Origin: Nocardia spumae
Lineage (GTDB): Bacteria > Actinomycetota > Actinomycetes > Mycobacteriales > Mycobacteriaceae
Assembly: GCF_020733635.1 (NCBI RefSeq)
Contig: NZ_JAJFZL010000001.1
Location: 4,278,001-4,342,000 of the forward strand
Length of the DNA stretch: 64,000 bases
Direction: 5' to 3'
Under the pieces are notes generated by a model, which did no database searches, was not told the origin of the DNA, and saw nothing but the letters and a program-made list of their open reading frames with translations. Made by a program: the position numbers and the translations under genes. Positions 11,070-32,511 of this stretch are shown one piece after another (position 1 is the first letter of the stretch; each line of letters opens with the position of its first letter).

Positions 11070-11146
<77 letters not shown>

Positions 11147-14709: not shown

Positions 14710-15411
14710 TCAGCAGGCCTCCTGGTCGATCGGGGGCTGGTAGCTGGCGGTGTAGAGCTTGGGGGCGGAGAAGTTCGGGGCTGGTGGTTCGCCGAGTCCC
14801 TCGTACCGGATCCGGACCTTGCCGCCGACGACGGTGCGGGTGGCGCCGGCGTCCATGCACGCGCCGATCAGGGCGTCGGCGATGCCGGTGCGGACCCAGA
14901 CCTTCCGCAGTCCCTGCCCGTAGGGCTTGGTGGTGCCGTCGGTCTGCACGATCAGGATCGGGACCATGCGTTCGTTGCCGTTGGCATCGAGTTTCGGTGC
15001 GCGGGTGCGGTAATCGAGATCGGGCTCTTCCTCGATGGCGACGATGACGCCCTCGATCTGCGTGCCGGGCTCGCTGTTGCGGTTGAACGCGGCGCGGGTA
15101 CGGGGTGTGAACGCCTTGCTCATCGTGGTGTCGCCCGCGGGCCGGGCCGGCTTGGTCTTGGTTGCGGTGCTGGTCATGGTGGTGGTCCTCCTCGCGTTCG
15201 TGGGGGTGGATTGCTGTGTGCCGCGGGGCCGCGCCCGATCGGGGCGCGGTGTCTCGGCGGTGGTCTGGTGGTGGTCGATGAGCGGGAGCCCGTGCGCTGC
15301 GGCGAGTTCGTTGGCCTTGGCGTAGAACAGCAGGGCCTCGGGGGTGCCTTTGACGCTGTCGGCGTGGGCTCGGAGCTTGGTGACTTTGTCGCGGGCCTGG
15401 TCGGGTGTCAC
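14710..15411 (-). CDS. DUF2786-like domain joined to an element-specific domain
   Basis: The 233-residue frame starts at GTG 15411 behind GGAGG. Its first 45 residues (KVTKLRAHADSVKGTPEALL, then YAKANELAAAHGL) look like a DUF2786 domain. After a proline-arginine linker a second ATG (15177, MTSTATKTK) has its own strong AGGAGG nine bases upstream, and the following 155 residues form a separate domain (PGTQIEGVIVAIEEEPDLDY through VRTGIADALIGACMDAGA to GKVRIRYEGLG). The cell may therefore make both a long and a short product. Its GTG overlaps the stop of the small upstream gene. Function is unknown; the second domain resembles single-stranded-DNA-binding-type beta proteins only in outline. Confidence 0.65.
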   Translation of the reverse strand: MTPDQARDKVTKLRAHADSVKGTPEALLFYAKANELAAAHGLPLIDHHQTTAETPRPDRARPRGTQQSTPTNARRTTTMTSTATKTKPARPAGDTTMSKAFTPRTRAAFNRNSEPGTQIEGVIVAIEEEPDLDYRTRAPKLDANGNERMVPILIVQTDGTTKPYGQGLRKVWVRTGIADALIGACMDAGATRTVVGGKVRIRYEGLGEPPAPNFSAPKLYTASYQPPIDQEAC

Positions 15412-15539
15412 TGCTGCGGGCCTCCGATCGTTGTGTGGGTGGCGGGCTCGGTGACCGGCACCGGGTGGGTTAACCGATGGTGGGCTCCGGTGGCCGGGTT
15501 GCTGTTTCGGCCCGCGAGGGCCTGATCGGGGTCCGTCAT
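15408..15539 (-). CDS. Small hypothetical protein, 43 aa
   Basis: A 43-residue product (MTDPDQALAGRNSNPATGAH...) lies exactly in the gap between two larger genes. Its ATG overlaps the stop of the upstream gene and its stop overlaps the GTG of the next gene. It is rich in proline, threonine and asparagine with no motif. Position and coupled overlaps are the only evidence that it is translated. Confidence 0.5.
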   Translation of the reverse strand: MTDPDQALAGRNSNPATGAHHRLTHPVPVTEPATHTTIGGPQQ

Positions 15540-16855
15540 CGGTCGAGCCCGTTGAGTACCGGTTTGGTGATGACCGGGCCGTGGAAGATCGGCTGCGCGG
15601 GGCGCGGCATCGCCGCTGCGGGACCGTCGGCGGTCGGCGACTGCTGCCGGTCCAGGTCGTGATCGGCGAATTTGCTTGTCAGCTCGGTGTTCTCGGTACG
15701 GAGCTGCTCGTTCTCGGTGCGGGCCTGGTGCAGTTCGGCGCGCAGCTGATCGATTTCGCTGACCGGGCCGTGATCGTTGTCGATCTGCCATCCGGCGACC
15801 TCGTCGATGACCGCGTTCCGCTGCCCGATGGCGTGGTAGATCGGCGACTGGGTCCCGGCGTCGCCGATCTGGACGGTCAGATCGGCTTTGTCAGGCCAGC
15901 CGTACGAATCGTCGGCGAGCTGGTCCAGAGCCCACTCATGCCCCTCGGGGAGGCTGGTGAACTCGGCTCGTTTCGCCAGTTCCGGGTGCGTGCGCACCAT
16001 CTCGGCGGTGCCGACGACCACCTCGTAATAGCGCGTCGGTTCACGCTCCGGTTCCTGCTGGGGTGCCGCGGCCTCGGCAGCCGGTTCCGGCTGCTGCGTG
16101 GGCTCGAACCGCTCCTGGTAGCTCGGCTCGGCGTTGGAGTCGATGAGCCGATCCGCCACCGGGCCCGCGGTGGCCGCGAAGGCGAAGGCGCCCCGAGCCG
16201 AATTGTGCAGCGGGCCTTGATCGATGGTCGGCCGCTCCGACATCGTGAACGGCGATTGGTAGGTGCGCTGTTGGGCTGCCCATACGGCGCGTTCGCGGTG
16301 CAGCTGCTCCCACTGCTGAAGCTGGCGCCGTTCGGTCGGGCCGGCGAGACCGGCGCGCAGCCTGGTCAATCCGTCGCGTGCTCGGGCACGCAGGGTGTCC
16401 AGGCCGAAGGTCGGCCGGAACACCGGGCGGACCGGGTGGCGCGGGTAGGCGTGGACGGTGGCCAGCGAGGTCACGGCCTGACCGCGTTCGGTCGCGGTGA
16501 GATGCTGGGAGGCGTAGATGCGGGTTTCGATCCGCTGCCGGGCGGTGTCGAGCTCGCGCTGGCGATCGAACCAGGTGTCAGGGGTGTCCCACGCGCGGAT
16601 CTGCTGTTCGTTGAGCAGTCGCCACCGGTATTCGACCAAGCTGGCGGTCAGCCGCCGGCGCTCTTGGGAGTGGGCGAACATGGTTTGGTGAGCGTCGGCC
16701 TTGACCAGTGCGTTGATCTCGCGCCGCACACTGCGCGGCACGCGGGTGGCGCTGGGATTCATGGTCCGCCAGGAGGCAAGAACGTGGTTGACCCGGCGGG
16801 CCAGCCCGGAAACTTCGTTCACGATCTGGTCGGTCTCGGATGTGTTGTCAGGCAT
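15536..16855 (-). CDS. Large hypothetical protein with coiled coil
   Basis: A 439-residue soluble protein. The N-terminal half is helical and rich in arginine and glutamine, and a low-complexity glutamate/proline/alanine linker lies near the middle. The C-terminus has a leucine-spaced coiled coil (EIDQLRAELHQARTENEQLR). AGGAGG precedes the ATG at 16855. The protein ends in NGLDR, related to the DWGLDR tails seen further up the operon, and the next ATG overlaps its stop. No domain is recognised; a structural or transfer role is possible. Confidence 0.7.
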   Translation of the reverse strand: MPDNTSETDQIVNEVSGLARRVNHVLASWRTMNPSATRVPRSVRREINALVKADAHQTMFAHSQERRRLTASLVEYRWRLLNEQQIRAWDTPDTWFDRQRELDTARQRIETRIYASQHLTATERGQAVTSLATVHAYPRHPVRPVFRPTFGLDTLRARARDGLTRLRAGLAGPTERRQLQQWEQLHRERAVWAAQQRTYQSPFTMSERPTIDQGPLHNSARGAFAFAATAGPVADRLIDSNAEPSYQERFEPTQQPEPAAEAAAPQQEPEREPTRYYEVVVGTAEMVRTHPELAKRAEFTSLPEGHEWALDQLADDSYGWPDKADLTVQIGDAGTQSPIYHAIGQRNAVIDEVAGWQIDNDHGPVSEIDQLRAELHQARTENEQLRTENTELTSKFADHDLDRQQSPTADGPAAAMPRPAQPIFHGPVITKPVLNGLDR

Positions 16856-16900: not shown

Positions 16901-17479
16901 TTACCAGCGGGCCCGCTTGGCGCGGGCGAACTGGCGGAGGTTGGGGCGGCCGTGGGTGGTCCACACGCTGTGACCGGTCCAGCCGACGCCGTAGATGAAC
17001 CAGGCGATACCGACCGCGGCGCCGACGGCGAAGAACGCGATCACGGTGATCGCGACGACCACCACACCGGTGGCCGCCGGACGCCACCAGAACGCGATGA
17101 CCGCCCGCCACCGCAGCGCGGCGGCAACCCACGGATCGTCCAGGTCGTCCTCGGCGTCACCGGCCGGCAACGCCGCGGTGTCGCTGGTATCGAGGTCCGG
17201 CACCGCGGCCAGATGACGTGCCCGGCGTTCGGGGGTGTTCTTGGGCATGGCGTCGGGGAACATCGCGTACAGCTGTCCGATACTGGGGGTTTCGACATCG
17301 AGGCGCGCACCGTCGGCCGGTGTGGGTGCTTCGATCGCTCTCTCGGGGACGGGTTCGGTGTGGTCGGGTTCGATGGGTTCGGGCAGCATTTCGGGGTCCT
17401 CCTTTGCCTGCTGGTCCTGGGATTTGTCTGACTGGTCGTCGGGCTCGTCGTGGTCGCCGAAGTCCTTGGCGGGGCTCAC
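16901..17479 (-). CDS. Membrane protein with acidic cytoplasmic N-terminus
   Basis: The 192-residue protein begins with about 110 hydrophilic, acidic residues (DHDEPDDQSDKSQDQQAKED) followed by two probable membrane helices (ATGVVVVAITVIAFFAVGAA and GIAWFIYGVGW) and a short basic tail. GTG 17479 overlaps the stop of the coupling ATPase gene. Being coupled to that gene, it may help anchor or assemble the transfer machinery, but this is inference only. Confidence 0.65.
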   Translation of the reverse strand: MSPAKDFGDHDEPDDQSDKSQDQQAKEDPEMLPEPIEPDHTEPVPERAIEAPTPADGARLDVETPSIGQLYAMFPDAMPKNTPERRARHLAAVPDLDTSDTAALPAGDAEDDLDDPWVAAALRWRAVIAFWWRPAATGVVVVAITVIAFFAVGAAVGIAWFIYGVGWTGHSVWTTHGRPNLRQFARAKRARW

Positions 17480-19683
17480 GCGGGCGCTCCGCGGCCGTGG
17501 ATCAACGCGCCACCGGCACGCCGCCACCGGCCCTGCTTCGCGGTGGTGTGTTTGGTGCTCGGCTGCATCGGGCGCAGCGGGATCGTGTCGGGATCCAGCG
17601 GGGTGATCCGGCCCCAGGTCGCGGTGCCGCGGTTGACGTAGACGCAGTCACCGGGTTCGAGGCGCCGCAACAGATTCGGGTCGATGAGCAGGGCGTCCTG
17701 CATGCGGACCTGGCCCTCGTCGCCGTGGCGGTCCTTCATCGTGTGCCGCGACGGTTCCAGTGCCCGGCGGGTGCCGTAGAGGGTGACGACGTCGTCGGGA
17801 CCTTCCATGCCGAAGCACAGCAGTCCACCGGACCAGGCCTTCATGAGCTGTTTGGCGTCGCGGTCGGTGCCGGCCAGCGATTCGAACGAGTGCGCGCCGA
17901 CGATGCACGCCACGCCCTGCGATCGCAGTGCCTCGCACGCGTCGGTAAGGCTGGCGCCCTCGGACACTCGGGAGAATTCGTCGATGGTGAAGGTGATCTC
18001 GCAGCCATGCGGGGTCGAAGCGACCTGTTCGACCAGCTTGATCACGGCTTTGGCCTGCGAGATCGCGACACTCTTCTGTGCGGTGCCCGGAACGGTGATG
18101 AACCAGTAGTCCTTGTCCAGCAGATCGAACGGTCCGTCGAACACCCCGTCCAGCTCACGGAACAGGTTGTCGAAACGCGCGGTCTCGGCCGGCAGGACCG
18201 GCTGCTTGCCGTCGTTCGCGGCGACGATCGCGTTCAGCTCCGCCCGGTGCGCCGGTTTATCCGGGAAGACGAAATGCCCGTCACCGTTGAATTCACCGCC
18301 CCACGCGTGCCACAGCCACGCCGGGTCGAACCGCGACATGAACTCCTTCGAGTTGGCCGGCGGGTTCTCGCTCGGCCCCTTCCCCGTGTCCGGGCCGGGG
18401 GCATCGACGATCAAGTGCACCAGCGAGATACGGAGTTCTTCGTAGAACTTCTGCGCCGAATCACTGGCCTTCGCCGTCGGCGCCAGGTCCTCGATGACGT
18501 GCCGCAACGGGCCGGGCTTCAGCGCCCAGATGTTGAGTTTGTCGGCCGGGACCATCGCGATCCGCGACGGATGCACGCCACCGGCGAGCAGCGCCGCTTT
18601 CAGATCGGCGTAGGTGACCAGGTCCTCGATGCCGCCCTTGCAGGACAGAAAGACGCTCACCGCGCGTTTGGGCTTGATCCCCAACGCCTTCCGCGTCGCC
18701 GCTGGCATACCCGCGGCGGCCAGATAGCGTTCGTGGCTGGCGAAGTGCGAGGCCACCGACAACCGGCACTCACCTGTGGTCTTGCCCGAACCGGGACCGC
18801 CCAGGATCCCGACGTGCTTGCGGACCGCGGCATGCGGAATCGTCAGCAAGGTGTCGGTGGTCGAGCGAAGTTGCCCGGCAACGGATTTGCGATGCTGGCT
18901 CACCGTGGTGGCCTGCCGTCCGAGCACGATGGCGCGGCGGCCCCGCCCGCGGCCGGTGACCGTGGTCAACGGTGTGGCGCGGCCTGCCAACGCGCGGGCG
19001 GCGTTGAACTTGGCGTCGATCTCGCGGCGCTGCGCACGCTCGGTAGCGGGAATGTCCTTCTTGCCGACGGTGTGGAGCTGGTTGCGATTGCGCGCCCACC
19101 ACCACGTCGCCGCCGCCAGGGCGACCGGGATGCCGGTGACGCTCATGTCCAGCATGGCCGGCAGCCAATCGGACTCGACCGCGAGCGCGGTGCCGTGGGC
19201 GAACAACTCCAGCGGCGCCCACGGCGACGTGCCGACCACCGCGGTGGTCGCGGGCAGGATCAACGAGGCCGTCGCGTAGTTGCGCAGCCGCGCCGGCTCC
19301 CACCCCATGCGCCGCGCCTGATAGATCGCCGCCGCGGTCATCGCGCCGGTGACACCGACTCCGACACTGGCATCGGCGAGAAACGCGCCCAAGTGATGCA
19401 CCCATTCGTTACCCGGGTGCAGCGACGGATCGTGGGTGTTCATGAAGTGCAGCAACCCCGGCTCTTTCGTCTGCTCACCGTGCTGGGGCGTCACCTCGAA
19501 CACCGGATGCTGCGCGGGCGCCGGCGCGTTTCCGCAGTCCTGCGGAGTGATCAGCGGCTGGCAATCGCCCGCCGGCGCGGGGACGGCCTGCTGCGGTGCC
19601 GGTGCGGTGGCCGCGTCGCAGTCGTGCGGGGTGATGATCGGCTGGCACTGGGTCGGTGCGGGGATTCTGTCGAACGTGGTCAT
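17476..19683 (-). CDS. VirD4/TraG-like coupling ATPase
   Basis: The 735-residue protein has an N-terminal stretch with two CQP-x-ITP-x-DC repeats, about four hydrophobic segments (residues 105-210), and a P-loop ATPase domain. Walker A is GGPGSGKTT near residue 298 and Walker B is FTIDEFSR near residue 566, followed by blocks such as GVACIVGAHSFESL. This layout is that of type IV coupling proteins, membrane-bound hexamers that pump DNA into the mating channel. An FtsK/TraB-type pump is the alternative, but the insertions between the Walker motifs fit VirD4/TraG better. ATG 19683 overlaps the previous stop (ATGA). Confidence 0.78.
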   Translation of the reverse strand: MTTFDRIPAPTQCQPIITPHDCDAATAPAPQQAVPAPAGDCQPLITPQDCGNAPAPAQHPVFEVTPQHGEQTKEPGLLHFMNTHDPSLHPGNEWVHHLGAFLADASVGVGVTGAMTAAAIYQARRMGWEPARLRNYATASLILPATTAVVGTSPWAPLELFAHGTALAVESDWLPAMLDMSVTGIPVALAAATWWWARNRNQLHTVGKKDIPATERAQRREIDAKFNAARALAGRATPLTTVTGRGRGRRAIVLGRQATTVSQHRKSVAGQLRSTTDTLLTIPHAAVRKHVGILGGPGSGKTTGECRLSVASHFASHERYLAAAGMPAATRKALGIKPKRAVSVFLSCKGGIEDLVTYADLKAALLAGGVHPSRIAMVPADKLNIWALKPGPLRHVIEDLAPTAKASDSAQKFYEELRISLVHLIVDAPGPDTGKGPSENPPANSKEFMSRFDPAWLWHAWGGEFNGDGHFVFPDKPAHRAELNAIVAANDGKQPVLPAETARFDNLFRELDGVFDGPFDLLDKDYWFITVPGTAQKSVAISQAKAVIKLVEQVASTPHGCEITFTIDEFSRVSEGASLTDACEALRSQGVACIVGAHSFESLAGTDRDAKQLMKAWSGGLLCFGMEGPDDVVTLYGTRRALEPSRHTMKDRHGDEGQVRMQDALLIDPNLLRRLEPGDCVYVNRGTATWGRITPLDPDTIPLRPMQPSTKHTTAKQGRWRRAGGALIHGRGAPA

Positions 19684-20480
19684 GCGGTGCCCTCCCGTCT
19701 GGCTGCGGGCAGATCGATCGAGCGGTGCGCGATGACGTCGGCCAGCGACCGCAAACGGATGTCGGGACGGGCCGGGATCCGGCCCGCGTGGATGAGGTCT
19801 TCGATCACGCCGATCAGCGCGCGACTGATCTGCTCGGTGCCGTAGACGTAGAGCAGGCCGGCGTCGATCGCGGCGGCCTGCTTGTAGGCGTCGACCACCG
19901 TGGTGGCCAGCCGCTTCTTCGTGGGCCGCTTCAGCGTCAGCTCGACCTCGACGGCCAGCCAGCGCCCGTGGTGCAGATACCGGCCGTCGTGCACATGCGC
20001 ACGCCCGAATCCGGCCTTGCGTGGTACGAGACCGCCGCGGTCGATGACCATCAACCCGCCGGGGCGCTGCCCGGCCGCGATCGCGGCATCGCGCAGCAGA
20101 TTCCGTTCGGGCACCCACAGTGATTCGTCCAGTCCGCACAGCGCGGCCCGCACCCGGGAGACGGCCAGTTTGTGAGTGATGTTGGTACCGGTCGGATTCC
20201 ACGGCGACACTGCGTGATCGAGGCGCTCGGCAGCCACGGTCGGCCACGGCCAGATCACCGTCACATCCCGATCAGCGTTGTCCGGGCGGATCGACACCGA
20301 CCGCAGCACGCCGAAACCGTCACGCCACCGCTCGATCAGCGTGTAGGTGCGGGAACGCTCAGTGCCGCACGCCAATTGCACGGCGGCGAAGTCGAGACAC
20401 CACTGCTGGCAGGCGAAACGGGTGACCTGTTCGTCGCGGTCGGTCCACTGCAATCGCGGGTTCGGCTTGGGACGTGTCAT
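19680..20480 (-). CDS. Replication-relaxation family protein
   Basis: A 266-residue protein with an N-terminal winged helix (DEQVTRFACQQWCLDFAAV, then ERSRTYTLIERWRDGFGVL) and a C-terminal part containing RWLAVEVELTLKRPTKKRL and LLYVYGTEQISRALIG. This fits the replication-relaxation family found on plasmids and integrative elements of Gram-positive bacteria, whose biochemical role is still poorly known. It lies directly upstream of the coupling ATPase, and its ATG overlaps the stop of the helix-turn-helix gene inside the conserved junction motif. Confidence 0.72.
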   Translation of the reverse strand: MTRPKPNPRLQWTDRDEQVTRFACQQWCLDFAAVQLACGTERSRTYTLIERWRDGFGVLRSVSIRPDNADRDVTVIWPWPTVAAERLDHAVSPWNPTGTNITHKLAVSRVRAALCGLDESLWVPERNLLRDAAIAAGQRPGGLMVIDRGGLVPRKAGFGRAHVHDGRYLHHGRWLAVEVELTLKRPTKKRLATTVVDAYKQAAAIDAGLLYVYGTEQISRALIGVIEDLIHAGRIPARPDIRLRSLADVIAHRSIDLPAARREGTA

Positions 20481-21364
20481 CGGTCCAGCCCCCAATCCAT
20501 GTCGGGCCGGTCGGTAGCGCCGGCTGAGGTGGTGGTTTGAGCGAGCGAGAACCGCCGATCACGCACGACCGTGCGTGTCGTGGTGTGCAGCTGCTCGGCG
20601 ATCTGCGGCGCCGACCGCCCCTGAGCGGTGAGTTCGGCGACCTGAGCGCGACGCTCGCGCCGCAGCTCCTTGCTCGTCCGCGGTTGCCATCCGCCACGAA
20701 CCGCACGTGCATCGGGGTCGTCGAGCGCGTCTTCGTCCCACTCGAACGGCAGCGCCCAGCCACGCTCACGGCCATACGCACGCGCCCGATCCGACGGCCC
20801 CGGCGTCAACTGCAACCGGTCGAACAGCGCTTTGATGTCGCGGTCACGCCCGGCCGGCAGAGATTGCCCGGTGTGGCTGTCGGGCAGCACACGCTCGGTC
20901 AGCGCGGCTATCGTGGTGTGATTGGGCTTGATCCCCAGTTCATTGGCCAGATGGCTCTGCGGATACCCGTAGGCGATCAGTGCCTGAATCCGCCGCCGCG
21001 CCCCGGTGATCGGCACCAACGCCGTGTCCGCGGCGACGTCGCCGACCCGTTCGGGCACCTCGACCGCCAGAATCGCCTGCTCGGTCTTCGCGCTGATGTG
21101 CGTAGTTTCCGGGCGGGCAAGGTTGGACATCGTCGCCTGGCTGACCCCGGCCAGCTCCGCCACGTGCTTCGGCTTGAGTCCGGCCGCGAACAGCTGCTCG
21201 ACGTGCGCACGAGCACTATCGGGCGTGACGCGCGGTTGCCAACGGCCGTACGCCATTTGGCGGCGCCGGTGCCGGCTGTACGCGGCCTTGCACATCCCGT
21301 GGCCTTGATCGCCCGGTCGGCCGCAACCACAGCTGCACATCGGATGAGCGTCGGAGCGCGTCAT
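20477..21364 (-). CDS. DNA-binding protein with cysteine cluster and two HTH
   Basis: This 295-residue protein begins with a short cysteine cluster (CSCGCGRPGDQGHGMC) that could bind zinc. A helix-turn-helix follows at KPKHVAELAGVSQATMSNL, another region at QSHLANELGIKPNHTTIAAL, and a last one at RSAPQIAEQLHTTTRTVVRD. It probably regulates the element or takes part in its replication. It ends in DMDWGLDR, one of five such tails, and overlaps both neighbours by four bases. The long upstream open frame is a shadow. Confidence 0.72.
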   Translation of the reverse strand: MTRSDAHPMCSCGCGRPGDQGHGMCKAAYSRHRRRQMAYGRWQPRVTPDSARAHVEQLFAAGLKPKHVAELAGVSQATMSNLARPETTHISAKTEQAILAVEVPERVGDVAADTALVPITGARRRIQALIAYGYPQSHLANELGIKPNHTTIAALTERVLPDSHTGQSLPAGRDRDIKALFDRLQLTPGPSDRARAYGRERGWALPFEWDEDALDDPDARAVRGGWQPRTSKELRRERRAQVAELTAQGRSAPQIAEQLHTTTRTVVRDRRFSLAQTTTSAGATDRPDMDWGLDR

Positions 21365-22389
21365 CGGTCCAACCCCCAATCCATCTGCGGACGCGCCATA
21401 TTCGGGCGGCGTGGAACATTGACCGCGGGAACCTGACGTGGTCCGGTGCTTCGCCCGGCCGGGCCTTCGCGGTAGAGGGCGAGCTGATCGGCCGGGATGC
21501 GGGTGAGTTCGTTGATGTCGTGGCCGGCGTCGAAGTGGTCCGACAGGTCCTTGCCGGTCGCGGCCTGCATCACCTCGACGCGCCCACCGATCCCCTGCAG
21601 GCGGTCGTGCACGCTGATCGCGTGGTCGAACCCGGGGCCATCGCGGTCGGCGACGATGACCACGTGCCGGGCGCCGCGAAGCTGCTCGGCGTGCTCGGGC
21701 CGGAACTTGCCCGCACCACCCGCGTTGCAGGTGGCCGGGTACCCGGCGGTGATCGCACGATCGACGTCCTTCTCGCCCTCGCACACCAGAATCGGGTGAC
21801 CCTGCTCGATCGCCCACGCCACGATCGGCGCCTGATACAGCACCGGCTTGAACCCACCCGACACCCACGTGCGGTCGGAGGTATCCCAGCGGCGCTGATA
21901 GAAGCCCTTCTCGATGCCGTGCTCGTGCGGGGTCTCGGTCCGGACCACCTGCCCGACAGGCTCATTCGCCGCGGTCGTGTAGGTGTAGGTCGCCACCCGC
22001 CGCCGTTGCCCGGTCACAGCACCCAGATCATGCGAAGGCTGCTGCGGCCGCGGACGGCGAACCGGATTCGGCGCTGCGGCCGGCCGGCGCTGCTGCCCGG
22101 CCCGCTGCCCGTTGCGGCCACGCTCGGGCAGGTGATCGAACAGATCACGCACCCGAATGTGTGCGGCCTCCAGTACTTCTTCCTGCGGGCATCCGGCGAA
22201 ACAATTGACGATCGTCTTCTCTCGACGTGGGTCGTACTTCACTCCCAGCGACGGCGAGGAGTCCTCGTGCGCCGGGCAACGGAACTTCGTCCACTGCCCG
22301 GAGTTGCTCGACGCCTCGACGGTGACCTGTCGCAACGCGTCCACTACGCGGTCGAACGACGCACCGTGGGAATGGTCATGGGCGTTCAT
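21361..22389 (-). CDS. CHC2 zinc finger-TOPRIM DNA primase-like protein
   Basis: In this 342-residue protein, residues 30-72 form a CHC2-type zinc-binding domain (RCPAHEDSSPSLGV, then TIVNCFAGCPQEEVL) and residues about 190-280 a TOPRIM fold (ILVCEGEKDVDRAITAG, GARHVVIVADRDGPG) with the expected glutamate and DxD. It lacks a helicase domain. Such proteins prime DNA synthesis during replication or transfer of mobile elements, like TraC-type primases. It ends in QMDWGLDR and is coupled to both neighbours by four-base overlaps. Confidence 0.82.
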   Translation of the reverse strand: MNAHDHSHGASFDRVVDALRQVTVEASSNSGQWTKFRCPAHEDSSPSLGVKYDPRREKTIVNCFAGCPQEEVLEAAHIRVRDLFDHLPERGRNGQRAGQQRRPAAAPNPVRRPRPQQPSHDLGAVTGQRRRVATYTYTTAANEPVGQVVRTETPHEHGIEKGFYQRRWDTSDRTWVSGGFKPVLYQAPIVAWAIEQGHPILVCEGEKDVDRAITAGYPATCNAGGAGKFRPEHAEQLRGARHVVIVADRDGPGFDHAISVHDRLQGIGGRVEVMQAATGKDLSDHFDAGHDINELTRIPADQLALYREGPAGRSTGPRQVPAVNVPRRPNMARPQMDWGLDR

Positions 22390-23123
22390 CGGTCCACCCC
22401 CCAATCCAGCTCCATCTGCCCGCTGGGAGTGGTGTCGGCGCCGGTGATCTGGTCGTACAGCTGCTGGCCCAGGTGTTCGGTGTAGGCCGGTGGGATGGCT
22501 TCGGCGAGTTCGCCGCGCACATCGGTCCAGTCGATGCCCATGGCTTTCTGCCACTGCGGCACGCTGCCCTTACCGCCCCCGGACCCGTACACCGCCACAT
22601 ACGGGCCCGCGTGCAGTTCACCGTGGCGATAGCCGCCCACCCGCCCCCGGTGGGCGGGATGGTCAGGCCGAGTCACCGACCATCGGTCGACCTCGAAGTA
22701 CCGGTGGCGGATCACCCCGAGCCCGAACATCTCCCCGCACAGGGTCACGTCACGGCGAATTCTGGCGCCGGGCACGTTCTCGATGACGGTCGGCACGCGC
22801 AGCCGTGCCAGCGCGACGCGCGTGGCTGGGATCAGCTGCGGATACTTGTCTGCCAGGGCCTGATTCGTCCCGGTGGTCAGTGCGCACGACGCCTGGCACG
22901 GCGGGGATGCGTGGACTGCGTCGAACTCCGTGCCGTGGGCGGCGACGAATTCCAGGGCGTCACCGCGGTGGAACTCGAACGGATAGTTGGGCTGATCGAC
23001 GATATCGACACCGACGACGTCGAACCCGGCCCGGTGGTAGCCCATCGCGGCACCACCGGCCTTGCAGAACAGGTCCAGCAACCGCGGCCGCGTCGACCCG
23101 CTTCGGAATGACAACTTGGTCAT
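22386..23123 (-). CDS. DNA (cytosine-5) methyltransferase, orphan
   Basis: A 245-residue enzyme with the C5-methyltransferase order: motif I (LLDLFCKAGGAAMGYHRAGF), the catalytic PPCQ loop of motif IV (ASPPCQASCALT), and the ENV of motif VI (VPTVIENVPGA). The target-recognition region is short, so it is at the small end of the family. No restriction enzyme is nearby; the usual role of such orphans on mobile elements is protection from host restriction or control of gene expression. ATG 23123 overlaps the previous stop; the protein ends in ELDWGVDR. Confidence 0.85.
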   Translation of the reverse strand: MTKLSFRSGSTRPRLLDLFCKAGGAAMGYHRAGFDVVGVDIVDQPNYPFEFHRGDALEFVAAHGTEFDAVHASPPCQASCALTTGTNQALADKYPQLIPATRVALARLRVPTVIENVPGARIRRDVTLCGEMFGLGVIRHRYFEVDRWSVTRPDHPAHRGRVGGYRHGELHAGPYVAVYGSGGGKGSVPQWQKAMGIDWTDVRGELAEAIPPAYTEHLGQQLYDQITGADTTPSGQMELDWGVDR

Positions 23124-23425
23124 AGCGGCATCACCTGCACGGCGTCTTCGAAGCTGGTCAGCCGGGCTCGGCAATGACGGGCTCCGCACCGGATGGTCCG
23201 GTACGCATCGAAGGTGTCCCGGAGATCGGTCAAACAGCTATCGCAGGCGAAAACGACTGTGCTGCAGCACAAGGTCGTCACAATCCAGCACACCGGATTT
23301 TCGCAGGGACGTCGGTCTGCCAGCAACTCGCACTCGGGGAGAAGGTCGTCTGTGAACAGCCCCGCGAGCGCGTCCTGCTCGACGTTCTGCGCGTAATCGA
23401 GGATCTGTGAACGCGACTGGGTCAT
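23120..23425 (-). CDS. Small cysteine-rich (zinc-ribbon-like) protein
   Basis: The 101-residue product carries cysteines in pairs (CENPVC, TLCCST, FACDSC, IRCGARHC), a spacing that suggests a zinc ribbon with FACDSC and RCGARHC as the outer knuckle. The N-terminus is acidic and helical. It is translationally coupled to both neighbours. The function is unknown, but nucleic-acid or protein binding would fit. Confidence 0.65.
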   Translation of the reverse strand: MTQSRSQILDYAQNVEQDALAGLFTDDLLPECELLADRRPCENPVCWIVTTLCCSTVVFACDSCLTDLRDTFDAYRTIRCGARHCRARLTSFEDAVQVMPL

Positions 23426-23931
23426 CGGTCCACCCCCCGGTCCTGCTCCAGAAATGCACCGGATCCGAGCCACTGGCCGGGCACCCGCCCTGGAGTACGC
23501 ACGGTGGGCGGTGTCGGCGCGTCGACCGAGACGAGCCGATCGGCGGTCTCCGGATGCCGGGCCGCCGCGCTGGCGAGGTGCGGGATCTGCTGCGCCGGCG
23601 TGGGAATCGAGGTCTTCTGGGCTTCCGCCTCCGAGGCGCGGACCAGCTTGACCGCCTCACGCGGGTCGACCCCGATACCGAGCGCCAGCGTCTTGATCTG
23701 CGGCCAATCGCGCCGGGCGTACGCCCGTACCCGGTGGGTGTTCGACAGGCGTGCGACCACCAAGGCGTCGCGGGCTTCCTCCGCGGTCAGGTCATTGCGG
23801 CCGGGCAGCCACGACACCTGCCAGCCCTGCTCGCCGAGTGTGGCGGTGTGCGGCAGATCGTCGAAGCTCATCCGGTTCGGCGCCACACGTACGCCGGCCG
23901 CCCTGGCGGCGTGAGTCAGACGAGTGTTCAC
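23422..23931 (-). CDS. Hypothetical protein, paralogue of the next gene upstream
   Basis: A 169-residue protein starting at GTG 23931, which overlaps the previous stop. Its middle (WQVSWLPGRNDLTAEEARDA, then TLALGIGVDPREAVKLVRA) matches the gene at 23928-24287 in order and spacing, so the two are diverged tandem duplicates. After this shared domain it has a proline-rich tail that ends in EQDRGVDR. The function is unknown; the last helix resembles a small DNA-binding helix pair. Confidence 0.65.
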   Translation of the reverse strand: MNTRLTHAARAAGVRVAPNRMSFDDLPHTATLGEQGWQVSWLPGRNDLTAEEARDALVVARLSNTHRVRAYARRDWPQIKTLALGIGVDPREAVKLVRASEAEAQKTSIPTPAQQIPHLASAAARHPETADRLVSVDAPTPPTVRTPGRVPGQWLGSGAFLEQDRGVDR

Positions 23932-24287
23932 CGGTCCAACCCCCAATCCCGCTCCACAGCGGTCGGATTCGAGGTCTTCTCGACCGTCGGCGTCGTGGTG
24001 CGGATGAGGCCGATCGCCTCGTTCACGGTCAATCCGAGCGTGCTGGCCCATTCGCGGGCTTCCAGCCGATCGGGTGCGACTGCCAACCGCATGCCGGCGC
24101 GTGCCTGATCGGGCGTGAACTGACGGCCAGGAAGACCGGTGAAGGCCCATTTGCCGTCACCGACGTCCATCGCGCGGTGCTCGGTCGCCTCCGATCGCAT
24201 GACACCGTGGTCGACGGTGATCGAAGGAATCGCCGGTGCCGCGGCGCGCGCCCACTCGGCCGGTCCCCATGACTTCGGCAGCTTCAT
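23928..24287 (-). CDS. Hypothetical protein, paralogue of the next gene downstream
   Basis: A 119-residue protein with the same core as its downstream neighbour: WAFTGLPGRQFTPDQARAGM, then TLGLTVNEAIGLIRT followed by a TVEKTS linker. The N-terminus (WGPAEWARAAAPAIPS) is its own. It ends in ERDWGLDR and passes translation to the next gene through a GTGA overlap. A short conserved element-specific family; function unknown. Confidence 0.65.
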   Translation of the reverse strand: MKLPKSWGPAEWARAAAPAIPSITVDHGVMRSEATEHRAMDVGDGKWAFTGLPGRQFTPDQARAGMRLAVAPDRLEAREWASTLGLTVNEAIGLIRTTTPTVEKTSNPTAVERDWGLDR

Positions 24288-25600: not shown

Positions 25601-25822
25601 ATGCCGAGCAAGCATCTGAATCCAGCCCGGGTCTACCGGCCGGACCCGGAGCTGTACCAGCGCGCCCAGGCGGCGGTTGAACAGGTCGGTTCGAATATGA
25701 ACGCCCACGTGATCGCTTTCCTGAGCTGGCTGGCCGGCGACACGAATGAGTTACCGCCTAGGCCGGACTCGTCGGATGACCGGCGAAGCGGCTCCGACCG
25801 GGCGACGCCAAAGCGAGACTAG
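25601..25822 (+). CDS. Small probable ribbon-helix-helix protein
   Basis: A 73-residue protein: RVYRPDPELYQRAQAAVEQV, then NMNAHVIAFLSWLAGD and a hydrophilic tail. A short strand followed by two helices is the pattern of ribbon-helix-helix (Arc/CopG/ParG) regulators, which bind palindromic repeats as dimers of dimers. It starts just after the double palindrome, so autoregulation and control of the opposite operon are likely. ATG 25601 or ATG 25589 could be the start; neither has a ribosome site, so the message may be leaderless. Its 3' end overlaps the convergent epimerase gene by four bases. Confidence 0.6.
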   Translation: MPSKHLNPARVYRPDPELYQRAQAAVEQVGSNMNAHVIAFLSWLAGDTNELPPRPDSSDDRRSGSDRATPKRD

Positions 25823-26730
25823 AGAACCGCGGCGCTCGCAGACCAAGCGTCCTGCACAATCTCCTCGATGCTGGAACGCATTGGCTCCCAACCGATTTCT
25901 GCGGCTGCCTTGGATGGATCCATGACCAGCACTGCTGGTTCGCGAGCGGGAGGACGGTACTCAAGCGGAATCTGGTTACCAACGACTCGCTCGACGGCGG
26001 TCACGACATCCATGACGCTGGTACCGCGACCGCTACCGATGTTGTACCGGGCCGTTCGGCCAGCTGCGGGAATATGCTCAATACACGCCACGAAGGCGTC
26101 GGCCACATCGTGAATATGCAGGTAGTCGCGAACAGCGGAACCATCGCCGTTGACGGACAGGGGAGTGTGCCTCGCCGCGGCCGTCAGTGCGCGTGGCAGC
26201 AATCGAGTCGGGTCGGGATCAACTCCCCCGGCTACGTTGGAAACCCGGGCGATGACGCCAGCGAGTTCGCCACCGCTGGCTTGGGCCTCGATCACAAGTT
26301 CGGCCGCAAGTTTGGTGCTTGCGTAGGGATGAGGGGGCGCATCAGGGAGCTGCTCGTTCATTGGTTGACGTTCCGGCGCTCCGTAGATTGACCCGGTCGA
26401 CGCGAACACTATCCGCCCGACCCCGCTGGCATTCATTGCATCCAGGAGAGCAATCGTCCCACCGACGTTCGCCCGGACGTATCGTGCGGCCTCGGCAAAT
26501 GAATCTCGGGCGCGCGTCAGCCCTGCCAGATGGCATACGGCATCGACACCATCTAGCGCTCGCCTCAGGGAGTCGACGTCAAGCAGATCTGCCGACCGCA
26601 CGTCCGCTGCTCCAGCGATGTCGGCGCCGACGGATCGCACCATGGCCATTGGCTCGTGTCCGGCGGCATCCAGCGCGGAGACGACAGCTCGACCGACGTA
26701 GCCATTTGCTCCGGTGACCAGTACGCGCAC
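25819..26730 (-). CDS. NAD-dependent epimerase/dehydratase (GalE-like)
   Basis: A 303-residue extended-SDR enzyme with the NAD-binding TGANGYVGRAVV at the start and the catalytic YASTK (tyrosine and lysine) preceded by the serine region FASTGSIYG. The C-terminal part has YLHIHDVADAFV, the usual UDP-sugar binding block. It probably epimerises or dehydrates a nucleotide sugar. The GTG start at 26730 has no clear ribosome site and lies 15 bp after the XRE regulator stop, so the two form an operon. It is metabolic cargo in the right part of the element. Confidence 0.82.
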   Translation of the reverse strand: MRVLVTGANGYVGRAVVSALDAAGHEPMAMVRSVGADIAGAADVRSADLLDVDSLRRALDGVDAVCHLAGLTRARDSFAEAARYVRANVGGTIALLDAMNASGVGRIVFASTGSIYGAPERQPMNEQLPDAPPHPYASTKLAAELVIEAQASGGELAGVIARVSNVAGGVDPDPTRLLPRALTAAARHTPLSVNGDGSAVRDYLHIHDVADAFVACIEHIPAAGRTARYNIGSGRGTSVMDVVTAVERVVGNQIPLEYRPPAREPAVLVMDPSKAAAEIGWEPMRSSIEEIVQDAWSASAAVL

Positions 26731-28348: not shown

Positions 28349-28502
28349 CCCCTGTTGGCCCCGCCGACCAGCCCCATCCATCCCAACTGTCTGCCTGCCT
28401 GCCGCAAGGACACTAAATGCGCCCGCAGGGTGTGTTTAGTGTCCTTGCGGCAGGCAGGCAGACACCACCACGAAAACTGCTGGTCGGCGGGGCAAACAGG
28501 GG
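28349..28502. repeat. Outer inverted repeat of a nested palindrome block
   Basis: The arms 28349-28371 and 28480-28502 are 23 bp each and match as inverted copies at 22 positions. Key letters are CCCCTGTTGGCCCC on the left and GGGGCAAACAGGGG on the right. They enclose a perfect 30-bp hairpin and abut a 50-bp palindrome. No gene is present in 28,164-28,565; the open frames seen there come from the repeat symmetry. Confidence 0.85.
28388..28464. repeat. Hairpin with perfect 30-bp stem and 17-nt loop
   Basis: The left arm 28388-28417 (starts TGTCTGCCTGCC, ends GGACACTAAA) and the right arm 28435-28464 are exact reverse complements. The loop is GC-rich. This is far longer than a normal terminator and lacks a T run, so it is more likely a recombination, replication or transfer signal, or the remains of a small palindromic transposon. 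Confidence 0.9.
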
Positions 28503-28548
28503 TGGACAGTGGCGTACGGACTATAGTCCGTACGCCACTGTCCACCCC
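28499..28548. repeat. Perfect 50-bp palindrome
   Basis: From GGGGTGGACAGTGG to CCACTGTCCACCCC the sequence reads the same on both strands with no spacer; the centre is ACTATAGT at 28520-28527. It overlaps the last four bases of the outer repeat and ends 17 bp before the stop codon of the DUF4365 gene. Confidence 0.92.
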
Positions 28549-28565: not shown

Positions 28566-31427
28566 TCAGCTCGAAGCTTCCTGCTCGCGCCGGCCAAGCC
28601 CATCGAACGCCATCTTCCGTGCTGCGGAAGAGGTGTGATGGCTGAGCATTTCAAGGTGTGGAACCACCGTTTCCGACGGTTCGGTACCAGACAGTGCGGC
28701 CGCAACATACCTCGCGAGTAACGTCCCAGTATCTCTCGCCAGCAAGGTCTCCAACAGCAGACTGGATTCCGGAATAGCTACCCCTAACGTCACCCAGCGC
28801 GCTACGCACCACCCAACCTCTGCTCGAACATCAGCGACTGTGTCATCTGCCAGCACTGCAAAAAGGTCCAACTCCTCTGGATTGCGACGTCGTTCGATTA
28901 TCCGAGCCAGAGTTTTCCGCTGTTCCGGCCCTGACGTAATAAGACTCCACTTTCGTACAGTGGAGACCGAACCGGGCCTGAATGCTTCTAGCACCTCCGT
29001 GGCTAGATGCTGAACGCCTGGCCAGCCGAGCAAGGAGACTCCTTCGCGAAGTTCTAGATTTCGAATAACCGCCTCCAGATCATTTTTAATTTCATCAGTC
29101 AATTTTTCTGAAACCTCTGTTAGCGCCGTCAGGGACCCTGATATATCTCGAGGATCGACCCGTGGATCGCTCAGCAGTTCTTTTATCGGATTCCAGTCAG
29201 CCCACTCCGGATGCCACGCATTGAGCAGAGTCAGAGCCCTGCCAAATCCTCTTCTGCCATTGGCGTAGGCATGCCTGCTCGCCTCGGTAATAATGTTTCG
29301 AATTCCCTCTCCTAGCGCCGTAATCTGCGCCGCAACTACATCACCCGGCAACGACGAAGCGCTATTAAGCGCTATGAGCGCTCTCCATGAGCCGCCGCGA
29401 GCGGCATCTAGCAGTTGCTCGCGGGCCTCCTCGTCGTTTTCAGCTAAGAGCGCCGAGAGCGCATTGTGTAATTCCCAATTATCGCCTTCTCTCGCATGTA
29501 TCCCACTTCTATCTTGCGTAGTCCACGATCCGCTCGGAATCGCCCTAACCACGGCAGCGTAGGAGTGGGCATAGGCTTGATCGGACTGAGCGGGAAGGTT
29601 AACGATGTGTGCAACTACTTCACTGGCTACTACCTCGGACGTTGACGACACTAGCGCCGCCAACATCTTCAATACGTATATTCGCACAGCAAATGTCGGC
29701 TGAACCCTTTCACAATACTCTTCAGGGTCCTCCAGAATGCGCAGCGCCCACCTAGCGTATCGGTCGGCCTCATCTGCCTCAAGGATGTCGGCTGCGCACG
29801 TTATAAGTTTCAAGTCTGCGTTTGCAGAAGTGACCGTGGATTCATCCAGATCGACATCTCTTGAAGCATTTCTAGCTGCTAGCGCCGGTCCAGCCAAGAC
29901 GATACGATTCAGGGCCAATTCAAGTGAATCCGAGTCGCCAGACCGCCGAAGATCTGTTAGCGCACCGGCTATTAAATCAACTGAACTGTCGCTATCTGAT
30001 GACCCAAGGATATGTCGAGAGAGTAGTGAGAGTGCATGTCGCCATCCGCTCTGATCACCGGCGAAGCCAGACATGAGAGTGGCCGATCGCAGATGTAGCC
30101 ATGCGGAGTTGCTGGACCCGAACTTGATGGACGACTTCAACGAGGCCGTGTTCGCCCAGTCCTCAAATCGCTCGCCGAAGTCGCTGCCCAGCCCCCAAGC
30201 GACCTGCTGGTTCCGCCACCAGCCAGCGAGGGTGTCTGAATCGGAGATCGCTTGGGCAAGGTTTCTTTCTCCCCAACCGCTCGTCGCGAAGATAAGCTCT
30301 GCTGCAGCGGCCGCAATCGCGGTACCTGTGGGATCATGCGATGAGGTGGCTCGAACACGCTGTACGTCAAGAGCAACGTCACGCGATTCTCTGATATTTC
30401 CTAGCTCGCGAAGGGCCCGCGCCTTCTGCACTCGTAGCCATGCGTTATCCATAGGCAACGATTTGTCCAAATCAAGAGCGGATTCCAATTCCACCAATGC
30501 CTGTTCGGACTGTCCATTCTCGATCAGCGCCGCCGCATAGACGACAACGGCAGCCGCATGCTGCTCAGGTCGATTAGCAAGCGCTCCGGGCGTAATACTA
30601 GCTTCTAGGAGCGGGGGGAACAGTTCCAAGGATCCCTGGTTTATGAAATCGTAGATCGCGGTAAACAACTTCCAGTCCCATTCGGGCAGTTGTCTAAGGA
30701 TCTCGATGGAGCGGTAGGGCGACGTTTTTCCGGTCAACCTTTCGATATCTTGCGCGGATTGGAAACGGTTCATCCTGCATAGCGTCAACATCGCGATAGA
30801 CTGAATAGCAGAGACCGTGTCGGGCTCTGAATTGGGGTGGGGAGCGACCAATCTCGGCGTTATTAGCGCATGACGCAACTCATCACGAGGAGAAATGTCA
30901 TTAGCCTCACTCCAGGCGGAGCCTTCCCAGCCTGGCGAGCTTCGTTGGGTCGCCGCGGCCTCGACCAGCTTGTCGCGCATATCTTGACACACTGTTTGAG
31001 TTTTGGGCACCGTGAGTTTTCCAGCGCGCTCAGTCCACTCGACCGCATCCGTCGTCACATGCGCCCAATATGAAGTGCCGGTTTCAAGGTCATGTAAGAC
31101 GACGAGGTGGACGACCGAATGGTTGAGCCAATAGTGAAAATGATCCCGCGATTCCCGAAAAACCCAACCCGTAACCTCACCAGTCTCGCTCGAACGGATA
31201 GGTTCTTTGAAATATTTCGACGTTCTAGAAGAATTCTCGCTGGTCTTCACTTGGGCACCGATCAGAAGACCCAGGTCGAATCTGCGATCGTCGCGCACCA
31301 TTAGCCAGAGATCCGTACCCAAATCATGGTATGCGTTGTCAGTAACTCCCCATCCCAAGCTCTTGAATTGGCGCTCTACGGCACTTTGCCCTGTTGAGCC
31401 AATCCTTTCTTGTTCGCTCGCACGCAT
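28566..31427 (-). CDS. DUF4365 nuclease-like protein with long helical-repeat region
   Basis: The 953-residue protein starts with a DUF4365-type domain of the PD-(D/E)XK nuclease superfamily: GQSAVERQFKSLGWGVTDNA, then DLGTDLWLMV and GLLIGAQVKTS, with the E, D and QxK residues in order (residues 14-62). The remaining 800 residues are alpha-helical repeats resembling TPR and then HEAT/ARM units (for example VRAEVGWCVARWVTLG and AARKMAFDGLGRR). Codon use is clearly more AT-rich than in neighbouring genes, a sign of recent acquisition. GAGGAG precedes the ATG. It is divergent from a GIY-YIG-like gene at the far end of the element, which makes a defence role plausible but unproven. Confidence 0.75.
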   Translation of the reverse strand: MRASEQERIGSTGQSAVERQFKSLGWGVTDNAYHDLGTDLWLMVRDDRRFDLGLLIGAQVKTSENSSRTSKYFKEPIRSSETGEVTGWVFRESRDHFHYWLNHSVVHLVVLHDLETGTSYWAHVTTDAVEWTERAGKLTVPKTQTVCQDMRDKLVEAAATQRSSPGWEGSAWSEANDISPRDELRHALITPRLVAPHPNSEPDTVSAIQSIAMLTLCRMNRFQSAQDIERLTGKTSPYRSIEILRQLPEWDWKLFTAIYDFINQGSLELFPPLLEASITPGALANRPEQHAAAVVVYAAALIENGQSEQALVELESALDLDKSLPMDNAWLRVQKARALRELGNIRESRDVALDVQRVRATSSHDPTGTAIAAAAAELIFATSGWGERNLAQAISDSDTLAGWWRNQQVAWGLGSDFGERFEDWANTASLKSSIKFGSSNSAWLHLRSATLMSGFAGDQSGWRHALSLLSRHILGSSDSDSSVDLIAGALTDLRRSGDSDSLELALNRIVLAGPALAARNASRDVDLDESTVTSANADLKLITCAADILEADEADRYARWALRILEDPEEYCERVQPTFAVRIYVLKMLAALVSSTSEVVASEVVAHIVNLPAQSDQAYAHSYAAVVRAIPSGSWTTQDRSGIHAREGDNWELHNALSALLAENDEEAREQLLDAARGGSWRALIALNSASSLPGDVVAAQITALGEGIRNIITEASRHAYANGRRGFGRALTLLNAWHPEWADWNPIKELLSDPRVDPRDISGSLTALTEVSEKLTDEIKNDLEAVIRNLELREGVSLLGWPGVQHLATEVLEAFRPGSVSTVRKWSLITSGPEQRKTLARIIERRRNPEELDLFAVLADDTVADVRAEVGWCVARWVTLGVAIPESSLLLETLLARDTGTLLARYVAAALSGTEPSETVVPHLEMLSHHTSSAARKMAFDGLGRREQEASS

Positions 31428-32468: not shown

Positions 32469-32511
32469 CTGGGGGTCAAGTGGTCGCAGGTTCAAATCCT
32501 GTCAGCCCGAC
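32469..32511 (+). repeat. attR: displaced tRNA-Pro 3' end
   Basis: This is the right copy of the 43-bp core, identical to 11102-11144, but without the 5' half of a tRNA in front of it. It is followed by its own terminator and by a decayed integrase, just as the left copy is followed by the active one, so it also served as left end of a second element. Confidence 0.92.

Follow-up and report, generated by a model that had tools for sequence, protein, structure and literature searches.

Why do genes for different proteins of a mobile element end in almost the same DNA, and is it the DNA or the encoded peptide that is shared? The question is raised by an integrated element of ~21.4 kb (11102-32511) in Nocardia spumae, which lies within the window, that is, the whole 64-kb stretch of DNA analysed here. 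The minus-strand gene block of this element, which runs from ~25250 down to the integrase at 11187, holds five stops (20477, 21361, 22386, 23422 and 23928) that are all preceded by GA(T/C)(T/C)GGGGG(N)TGGACCG(A/G)TGA, encoding, in this order, the protein ends DWGLDR, DWGLDR, DWGVDR, DRGVDR and DWGLDR. Each of the five tails shares 4 nt (ATGA or GTGA) with the start codon of the next gene. A sequence-only reading of the window had reported these ends and their supply of the next start, together with a sixth gene that ends at 15536 with NGLDR and a CGATGA overlap, and all of this was confirmed, on the minus strand. It had also called the five genes successive, which they are not: an untailed gene (23120-23425) begins at the 23422 junction, ends ...VQVMPL and splits the tailed series between the second and third tailed genes in the order of transcription. 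The tails are as follows.

20477-20497, minus strand: DWGLDR and stop, tail of the helix-turn-helix (HTH) gene; overlaps the start of the MobC-like gene
21361-21381, minus strand: DWGLDR and stop, tail of the toprim/primase-like gene; overlaps the start of the HTH gene
22386-22406, minus strand: DWGVDR and stop, tail of the DNA methylase gene; not on any of the other 20 methylases matched in the genus sample
23422-23442, minus strand: DRGVDR and stop, tail of the 169-aa (amino acid) gene; overlaps the start of the untailed 101-aa gene
23928-23948, minus strand: DWGLDR and stop, tail of the 119-aa gene; the next gene starts with GTG
15536-15553, minus strand: NGLDR and stop, variant tail of the coiled-coil gene; no GGGGG run

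Over 19-31 nt the five copies hardly differ. With up to three mismatches, TTGGGGGTTGGACCGATGA has 5 matches in the window, compared to a mean of 0.02 in shuffled versions, none of 100 of which reached 5. With no mismatch allowed, GGGGGNTGGACCGRTGA is found at exactly the five window sites in the 7,066,968-base genome, and its reversed control at none. These counts, together with a pattern scan of the order, rule out plain chance as the origin of the tails.

The exact tail pattern is present in 4 of 150 genomes of the genus, the source genome counted, with 12 true matches in those 4, against one match each in 2 of the 150 for the reversed control. A degenerate pattern at codon level was matched by 3 of the 148 genomes of the genus sample (source included) and by 1 of 397 in the order (the source only). 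The pattern scan yielded 7 stretches of genome contigs and 3 of viral contigs, but long upstream frames at the tail were seen only in Nocardia elegans and in one Mycobacteriaceae bin (two stretches on one contig); the other seven, with upstream frames of 10-73 codons, one of them clipped by the edge of the locus, were taken as unrelated. Two sites in Planctomycetota bins (L059:267-287 and L062:17-37) have GATTGGGGG-type DNA reading DWGMDR and share the same downstream reading frame, i.e. they represent one conserved place; as their upstream frames are short or cut, they are probably unrelated to the element tails.

The genus matches and a Mycobacteriaceae metagenome bin gave five close elements, in which the tail is found on genes of the toprim, HTH, 119-aa and 169-aa types, with the variants DWGLAR, DWGLGR, DWGLSR, DRGMDR and DWGWDR and with one exception, the 169-aa type gene of G060, which ends in DREVQR. 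The coiled-coil gene, present in 4 of the 5, has a G-L/M-D-R end with differing glycine codons and no GGGGG run. Genes of a single element may bear the tail too, as does a 131-aa gene of the G131 element that ends in PELDWGLDR; behind it, inside the tagged series, lies a queuine tRNA-ribosyltransferase-like gene (L015:17888-18661; phrog_1279, E 1.4e-94). Across related elements the tail thus keeps its place at the ends of genes that differ, a point that the sequence-only reading had proposed to check.

More distant relatives were reached via the coupling ATPase of the element, which has matches in 64 of the 148 genus genomes, close ones counted, with 30-39% identity for the distant ones; in the order sample 3 of 298 genomes, all of the same genus, had one when the best few candidates per genome were scored. 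First 16 and then 20 more distant loci were examined, their genes called and the gene ends read. A simple purpose-made gene finder was used, so that some genes are shortened or missed, and distances to the next gene may in some cases be overestimated in clades A, B and D. The resulting 41 elements fall into clades 1 (5 elements), A (12), B (9), C (10) and D (4), plus the unplaced L129, and all 41 have the coupling ATPase, which for 36 of them was the search key. The tail reads DWGLDR in clade 1, ERDGIER and similar in A, GIERSR in B and WEGFDR in D; in the ten clade-C elements no such tail was found at gene ends although the coupling ATPase is present. The clades had been named by eye from the tails; two trees, one with 41 rows for the coupling ATPase and one with 40 rows for the MobC-like protein, gave identical groups, each tail type forming one clade. 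Support in the ATPase tree was 100/100 for clades 1, B, C and D and 91/72 for A, with a warning from the tree tool that long branches (B with C) meet. L129, whose ATPase branches next to those of clade A and which lacks a clear tail type, does not enter the tail statistics.

Further observations concern individual clades. The source genome holds a second related element (L077, contig 1 near 6.49 Mb), whose proteins have an ERDGIER-type tail, i.e. two tail types occur in one genome. In the clade-C elements L117-L122, L124, L127, L128 and L131, genes end in EEVA or GEAA, encoded by GAGGTGGC-type ribosome sites, and cluster 20, which by eye resembles SSB, is present in 10 of 10.

Is the similarity of the tails inherited with the proteins? 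For this comparison the proteins were clustered after removal of the last 10 residues. In the eleven tailed clusters the core end of the respective clade is carried by 135 of 152 genes (25/28 in clade 1, 44/56 in A, 57/59 in B and 9/9 in D). The core patterns of A and B are loose and match 10 and 15 of 358 host genes, those of clades 1 and D none; an end of the form G-hydrophobic-(D/E)-R was not found in the 358 host genes. Over the last 7 residues the mean BLOSUM62 score is 13.6 between different families within one clade (n=2652 pairs), compared to -0.46 for one family across clades (n=668) and 0.85 for different families of different clades. None of 500 permutations of the clade labels within families reached the observed value (152 genes, 11 clusters), and the clade effect is gone 30 residues upstream of the end (-6.07 vs -6.18). 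In 15 mostly untailed control families (238 genes, the mixed cluster 5 included) the score is -4.3 for different families of the same clade and 7.6 within family and clade.

The tail is selective. It is absent from the coupling ATPase (0/40 in five clades; that of L129 fits a loose pattern) and from the integrase (0/21), and a loose pattern finds it on 1 of 40 MobC-like proteins; on the same loose pattern cluster 5 (9/23), cluster 37 (3/7) and cluster 39 (2/6) are mixed. The coiled-coil families 27 and 8, on the other hand, are mostly tailed across the four tail clades. Single families illustrate the exchange of ends best: the RRQRL zinc-binding family (NF041638 match, one member tested) has one conserved body and ends in DWGLDR, EREGIDR, GRERTR or WDGFER depending on the clade, and the family of the 169-aa gene (15) has three tail types in three clades. 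Elements with the same genes but other ends, which the sequence-only reading had named as evidence against a repeated module, do therefore occur, but their ends are again a shared tail, sorted by coupling-ATPase clade.

That reading had also taken the tailed proteins to be unrelated. This holds for the toprim and HTH families (hhalign 1.4%) but not for those of the 23422 and 23928 genes, which match by profile (89%, E 2e-6); the profile comparison covered the clusters, to which the methylase does not belong. With the tails removed, 3 of the 55 pairs of the 11 tailed clusters exceed 50% (8-27, 15-43 and the coiled-coil pair 8-16), which rules out common ancestry of the tailed proteins. Profile searches found ten of the eleven tailed families in 0 of the 10 clade-C elements; the eleventh, a coiled-coil family, matches 9 of 10, which we read as coiled-coil similarity. 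Since tail similarity goes by clade and not by family, the ends of different proteins evolve together within a clade, which demands a common partner or a common constraint.

Whether this constraint acts on the peptide or on the DNA can be judged from the codons. We compared all genes of the tailed clusters, in pairs from different clusters only and with no tail pattern required; an earlier count had used patterns that required the counted residues, hence its "28 of 28" figures are no evidence of invariance. In clade B, R(-3) is found in 59 of 59 genes and uses the same codon at a rate of 0.30 (0.33 expected), R(-1) in 57 of 59 at 0.25 (0.33). In clade A, R(-6) and G(-4) are each found in 41 of 56 genes, with rates of 0.27 (0.34 expected) and 0.39 (0.35). 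Three clade-A elements have in addition a GHAF(A/S/T)GL block, which begins 18-22 residues before the end in all 14 of their tailed-cluster genes (5 families) and has 14 spellings in 14 genes, with a codon concordance of 0.499 vs 0.485. A looser upstream pattern for clade A, which matched 20 of 56 tailed genes, was set aside because 16 of 218 other genes and 12 of 358 host genes fitted it as well. Judged from the sequences, the tail is thus conserved at the peptide level in clades A and B, the best-conserved residues being spelled near chance between families, and the shared C-terminal peptide signal, one of the options of the sequence-only reading, is supported. In clade 1, a nucleotide constraint, probably the ribosome site, is added on top.

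The methylase of the element suggests that a tail can be acquired. It has 21 matches in 17 of 148 genomes of the genus, and only the one in this element bears the tail. Of 307 records, the 12 phage matches listed align to residue 226-234 of 245, and in those relatives whose ends were read from the records (three phage proteins and one plasmid protein) no tail was found. Likewise, the eight phage matches listed for the HTH protein, of 374 records, stop at residue 259 of 295. In AlphaFold models the linker before the tail has a predicted local distance difference test (pLDDT) score of <50, both in the toprim protein (residues 310-332 of 342, 12-row alignment) and in a clade-A RRQRL protein (residues 113-126 of 143, 18-row alignment). 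In sequence and predicted structure the tail therefore looks like a label that has been added on behind a flexible linker.

What might read such a label? The genes of the element from which candidates can be drawn are listed below.

11187-12461, minus strand: tyrosine integrase of the element, untailed
14710-15411, minus strand: DUF2786 protein (cluster 4), untailed; second candidate reader
15536-16855, minus strand: long coiled-coil protein, tailed (family 27, a relative of family 8)
17476-19683, minus strand: VirD4/TraD-type coupling ATPase, untailed; guessed reader (weak Pfam match, just below cut-off)
19680-20480, minus strand: MobC-like protein, untailed; part of the guessed reader complex (weak likeness to MobC replication-relaxation proteins, 20 bits vs a curated cut-off of 200)
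20477-21364, minus strand: helix-turn-helix protein, tailed, phage-like (phrog_1590; family 28)
21361-22389, minus strand: toprim/primase-like protein, tailed (family 11)
22386-23123, minus strand: C5 DNA methylase, tailed, phage-like
23120-23425, minus strand: 101-aa gene without tail, inside the tailed series
23422-23931, minus strand: 169-aa gene, tailed (family 15)
23928-24287, minus strand: 119-aa gene, tailed (family 43); distant relative of the 169-aa gene

We propose, with about even confidence, that the tail is a docking label read by a partner encoded on the element, probably part of a DNA-transfer complex. Selected proteins encoded by an integrative mobile element would carry this label at the C-terminus, and one partner would read it and co-evolve with it. 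The label would come in one version per coupling-ATPase clade (DWGLDR, ERDGIER, GIERSR or WEGFDR; a sub-group of the ERDGIER elements also has the GHAFAGL block further upstream), and would be borne by primase-like, zinc-binding, HTH, coiled-coil and small proteins, not by the coupling ATPase or the integrase. Most likely it would dock the tagged proteins onto the DNA-transfer complex of the element, where they would be gathered on the transferred DNA, perhaps travelling with it. Where genes overlap, their last codons would double as the ribosome site of the next gene, which probably fixed the GGGGG spelling in clade 1. Docking on a transfer complex is suggested by the match with the clades of the coupling ATPase and by the primase, zinc and DNA-binding kinds of tagged protein. 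These kinds recall the maintenance proteins carried by a conjugation system: plasmid-encoded proteins such as ParA, ParB1 and SSB are delivered to recipients (PMC8406263), and C-terminal signals occur on substrates of secretion and conjugation (PMC11288057). As reader, our first guess is the coupling/relaxase-type complex, with the cluster-4 family as a second candidate. What we infer is that there is a single reader, which protein it is, and that transfer is involved. A bolder version, which we hold only tentatively and think rather unlikely, is that the tails are clade-specific address codes, whereby any protein bearing the resident tail would be brought to the element's own transfer complex and enter the recipient together with the DNA, and that newly captured phage genes such as the methylase are enlisted by gaining a tail.

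Several results weigh against the docking label. A VirB4-type protein was not found in the source genome, where PF03135 gave 0 matches and PF19044 one sub-cut-off match, at 3.13 Mb and outside the element. In actinobacteria, one FtsK/SpoIIIE-like protein can be enough for an element to transfer DNA (PMC3218068), so the missing channel does not rule out transfer. The MobC-like protein has no tail, and the ten clade-C elements show that the coupling ATPase alone does not require one. A related methylase in the clade-B element L079 is untailed. At the nucleotide level, codons are shared above chance at the last R (0.49 vs 0.33) and at E/D(-2) (0.69 vs 0.56) of clade A, at I/V(-5) of clade B (0.87 vs 0.71) and at most tail positions of clade 1 (G 0.84 vs 0.34, last R 0.60 vs 0.33), where GGG is used in 24 of 24 tails chosen by pattern, and likewise in clade D, from few pairs. 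Ribosome-site runs of at least 4 are slightly commoner at tailed overlaps (20/21 vs 38/45 in clade 1, 44/45 vs 40/49 in A), a comparison in which tailed genes outside the eleven clusters, e.g. the methylase, count as untailed. From the five window genes alone the peptide and nucleotide roles would be inseparable; going by their sequences, clades A and B separate them.

The strongest rival is an assembly hub inside the donor, which we consider possible, though on the unlikely side. The tagged proteins would attach to a hub, such as the cluster-4 or the coiled-coil protein, and build a body for replication or DNA processing with no role in transfer. The distribution of two clusters fits this: cluster 4 is found in 25 of 30 tail-bearing elements vs 0 of 10 in clade C, cluster 10 in 23 of 30 vs 0 of 10, without clade 1. 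The primase-like and DNA-binding proteins among the tagged ones and the failure to find VirB4 in the source genome point in the same direction. However, cluster 4 is not known to have a binding function, and it was not found in 5 of the 30 tail-bearing elements, some of which are clipped by the fetched stretch. A tag that sets the lifetime of the protein via a host protease would account for the C-terminal position on several families and for the flexible linker, yet it appears very improbable, as a host protease would favour one tail. The tails differ between clades of one genus, and the source genome alone holds both the DWGLDR and the ERDGIER type. The tails are also charged, unlike ssrA-type tags.

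That the repeated DNA is an efficient ribosome site with a stop-start overlap, and the peptide its by-product, is somewhat less improbable, but we would not expect it. The 4-nt overlaps of all five window tails speak for such translational coupling, as do the strongly biased glycine codons of clade 1, the slight excess of good ribosome sites at tailed overlaps of clades 1 and A, and clade-C ends such as EEVA, which resemble encoded ribosome sites (GAGGTGGC before the stop). Tails do not always lie at a stop-start overlap, however: those of the five window sites do, but not all of those in clades B and D. Of 30 clade-B tails, 24 lie off the 4-nt overlap, most of these with the next start at ≤5 nt, and 8 are >15 nt from the next called gene; of the 57 core tails of this clade, 10 end in TAA or TAG, and for 21 the distance to the next called gene exceeds 15 nt. 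Two long genes of clade D end in EFDR at TAG, one with the next called gene 138 nt away, the other with none called further. Four "non-overlap" tails of clade 1 turned out to be gene-finder errors and were not used. The GGGGG-type Shine-Dalgarno sequences described by the sequence-only reading are present at the tails but appear not to be special to them, as untailed 4-nt junctions score nearly as well: the mean ribosome-site score is 4.81 (21 tailed) vs 4.53 (45 untailed) in clade 1 and 3.93 (15) vs 4.14 (37) in clade B, where the share of good sites is also lower at tailed junctions. In view of these scores, the chance-rate codons of clades A and B, the 14 spellings of GHAFAGL, the non-overlapping tails and the distant next genes, a ribosome-site by-product was rejected as the whole account, and the device for equal translation considered in the sequence-only reading does not hold up as the main one. 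Its other suggestion, a repeated junction cassette, fares worse. A short DNA cassette recently copied from one gene end to another, by gene conversion or as a modular junction and with no function of the peptide, would explain the near identity of the five copies, but we regard it as hardly credible: by eye, the likeness drops off directly beyond the tail in the five elements of clade 1, the GHAFAGL block is spelled differently in each gene, and related proteins of other clades carry a different shared tail, which contradicts copying outside clade 1.

How does the docking label that we favour compare to known systems? CTERM sorting signals consist of a membrane helix and a basic end and are cleaved by a sortase-like protease. 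In the Nocardia genes a membrane helix with basic residues was seen by eye neither in the last 8 residues of the 152 genes nor in the last 36 of the 56 clade-A genes, no membrane predictor having been run. The Nocardia tail is instead short and polar, belongs to proteins that handle DNA in a mobile element and varies with the element clade. What it has in common with PEP-CTERM/EpsH, GlyGly-CTERM/rhombosortase and MYXO-CTERM is a short C-terminal homology on many otherwise unrelated proteins, and these systems pair it with a reader (PMC1569441, PMC3237569 and PMC11980579). The translocation signals of type IV secretion and conjugation resemble the tail in being charged, at the extreme C-terminus and encoded with a VirD4-type coupling ATPase, here in the same element; the difference is the VirB4 protein not found in the source genome with the PF03135 and PF19044 models. 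As each comparison lacks a defining feature that was looked for (membrane helix; VirB4), the tail is filed under neither. Translational coupling relies on overlapping stop and start codons with an internal ribosome site. The ATGA or GTGA overlaps and G-rich sites of the window junctions are of this kind, but in other clades the peptide persists without an overlap or a near start. The cargo of encapsulins and microcompartments carries short terminal loading peptides, and one short terminal peptide on unrelated cargo behind a flexible linker is indeed similar; unlike in these systems, no shell protein was noticed among the clustered proteins, in which no search was aimed at one. A description of such tails was not found in the literature searched, most subscription journals lying outside the search.

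If the tails are docking labels, they form a modular address system inside a mobile element, and one could tell from sequence which proteins gather on DNA during its transfer or accompany it, in actinobacteria whose conjugation machinery has been little studied so far. As there are four versions, each specific to a clade, a reader can be tested by combining matched and mismatched tails and partners. More generally, DNA repeats at the ends of genes can reflect a peptide that the proteins have in common.

The borders of the element are marked by an exact 43-bp repeat of the end of a tRNA-Pro gene.

11102-11144, plus strand: attachment (att) repeat inside the 3' part of tRNA-Pro, 43 bp, exact
32469-32511, plus strand: second att repeat, an exact 43-bp copy at the other border of the element

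The accessory part contains a 37-nt inverted repeat (28388-28464; 92%, arms 3 nt apart), which adjoins a perfect palindrome with 25-nt arms (28499-28548). Neither has an Rfam match at the gathering score, and they are possibly an origin or a transposon end. The gene at 28566-31427 encodes a 953-aa protein with DUF4365 and weak TPR matches, whose residues 3-161 match the PADLOC model Aga_REase-PNTD1-PNTD2 (E 8.4e-13), and it may represent defence cargo. An NAD-dependent epimerase gene among the accessory genes (25819-26730) was missed by the gene finder, which was trained on host codons. Outside the elements, the Nocardia plasmids L069-L074 carry genes for a toprim protein, related to that of the element but larger, and for a large protein named RRQRL; several of these proteins end in GLGR, GVER, EIGR and similar and are perhaps fused, similarly tagged forms.

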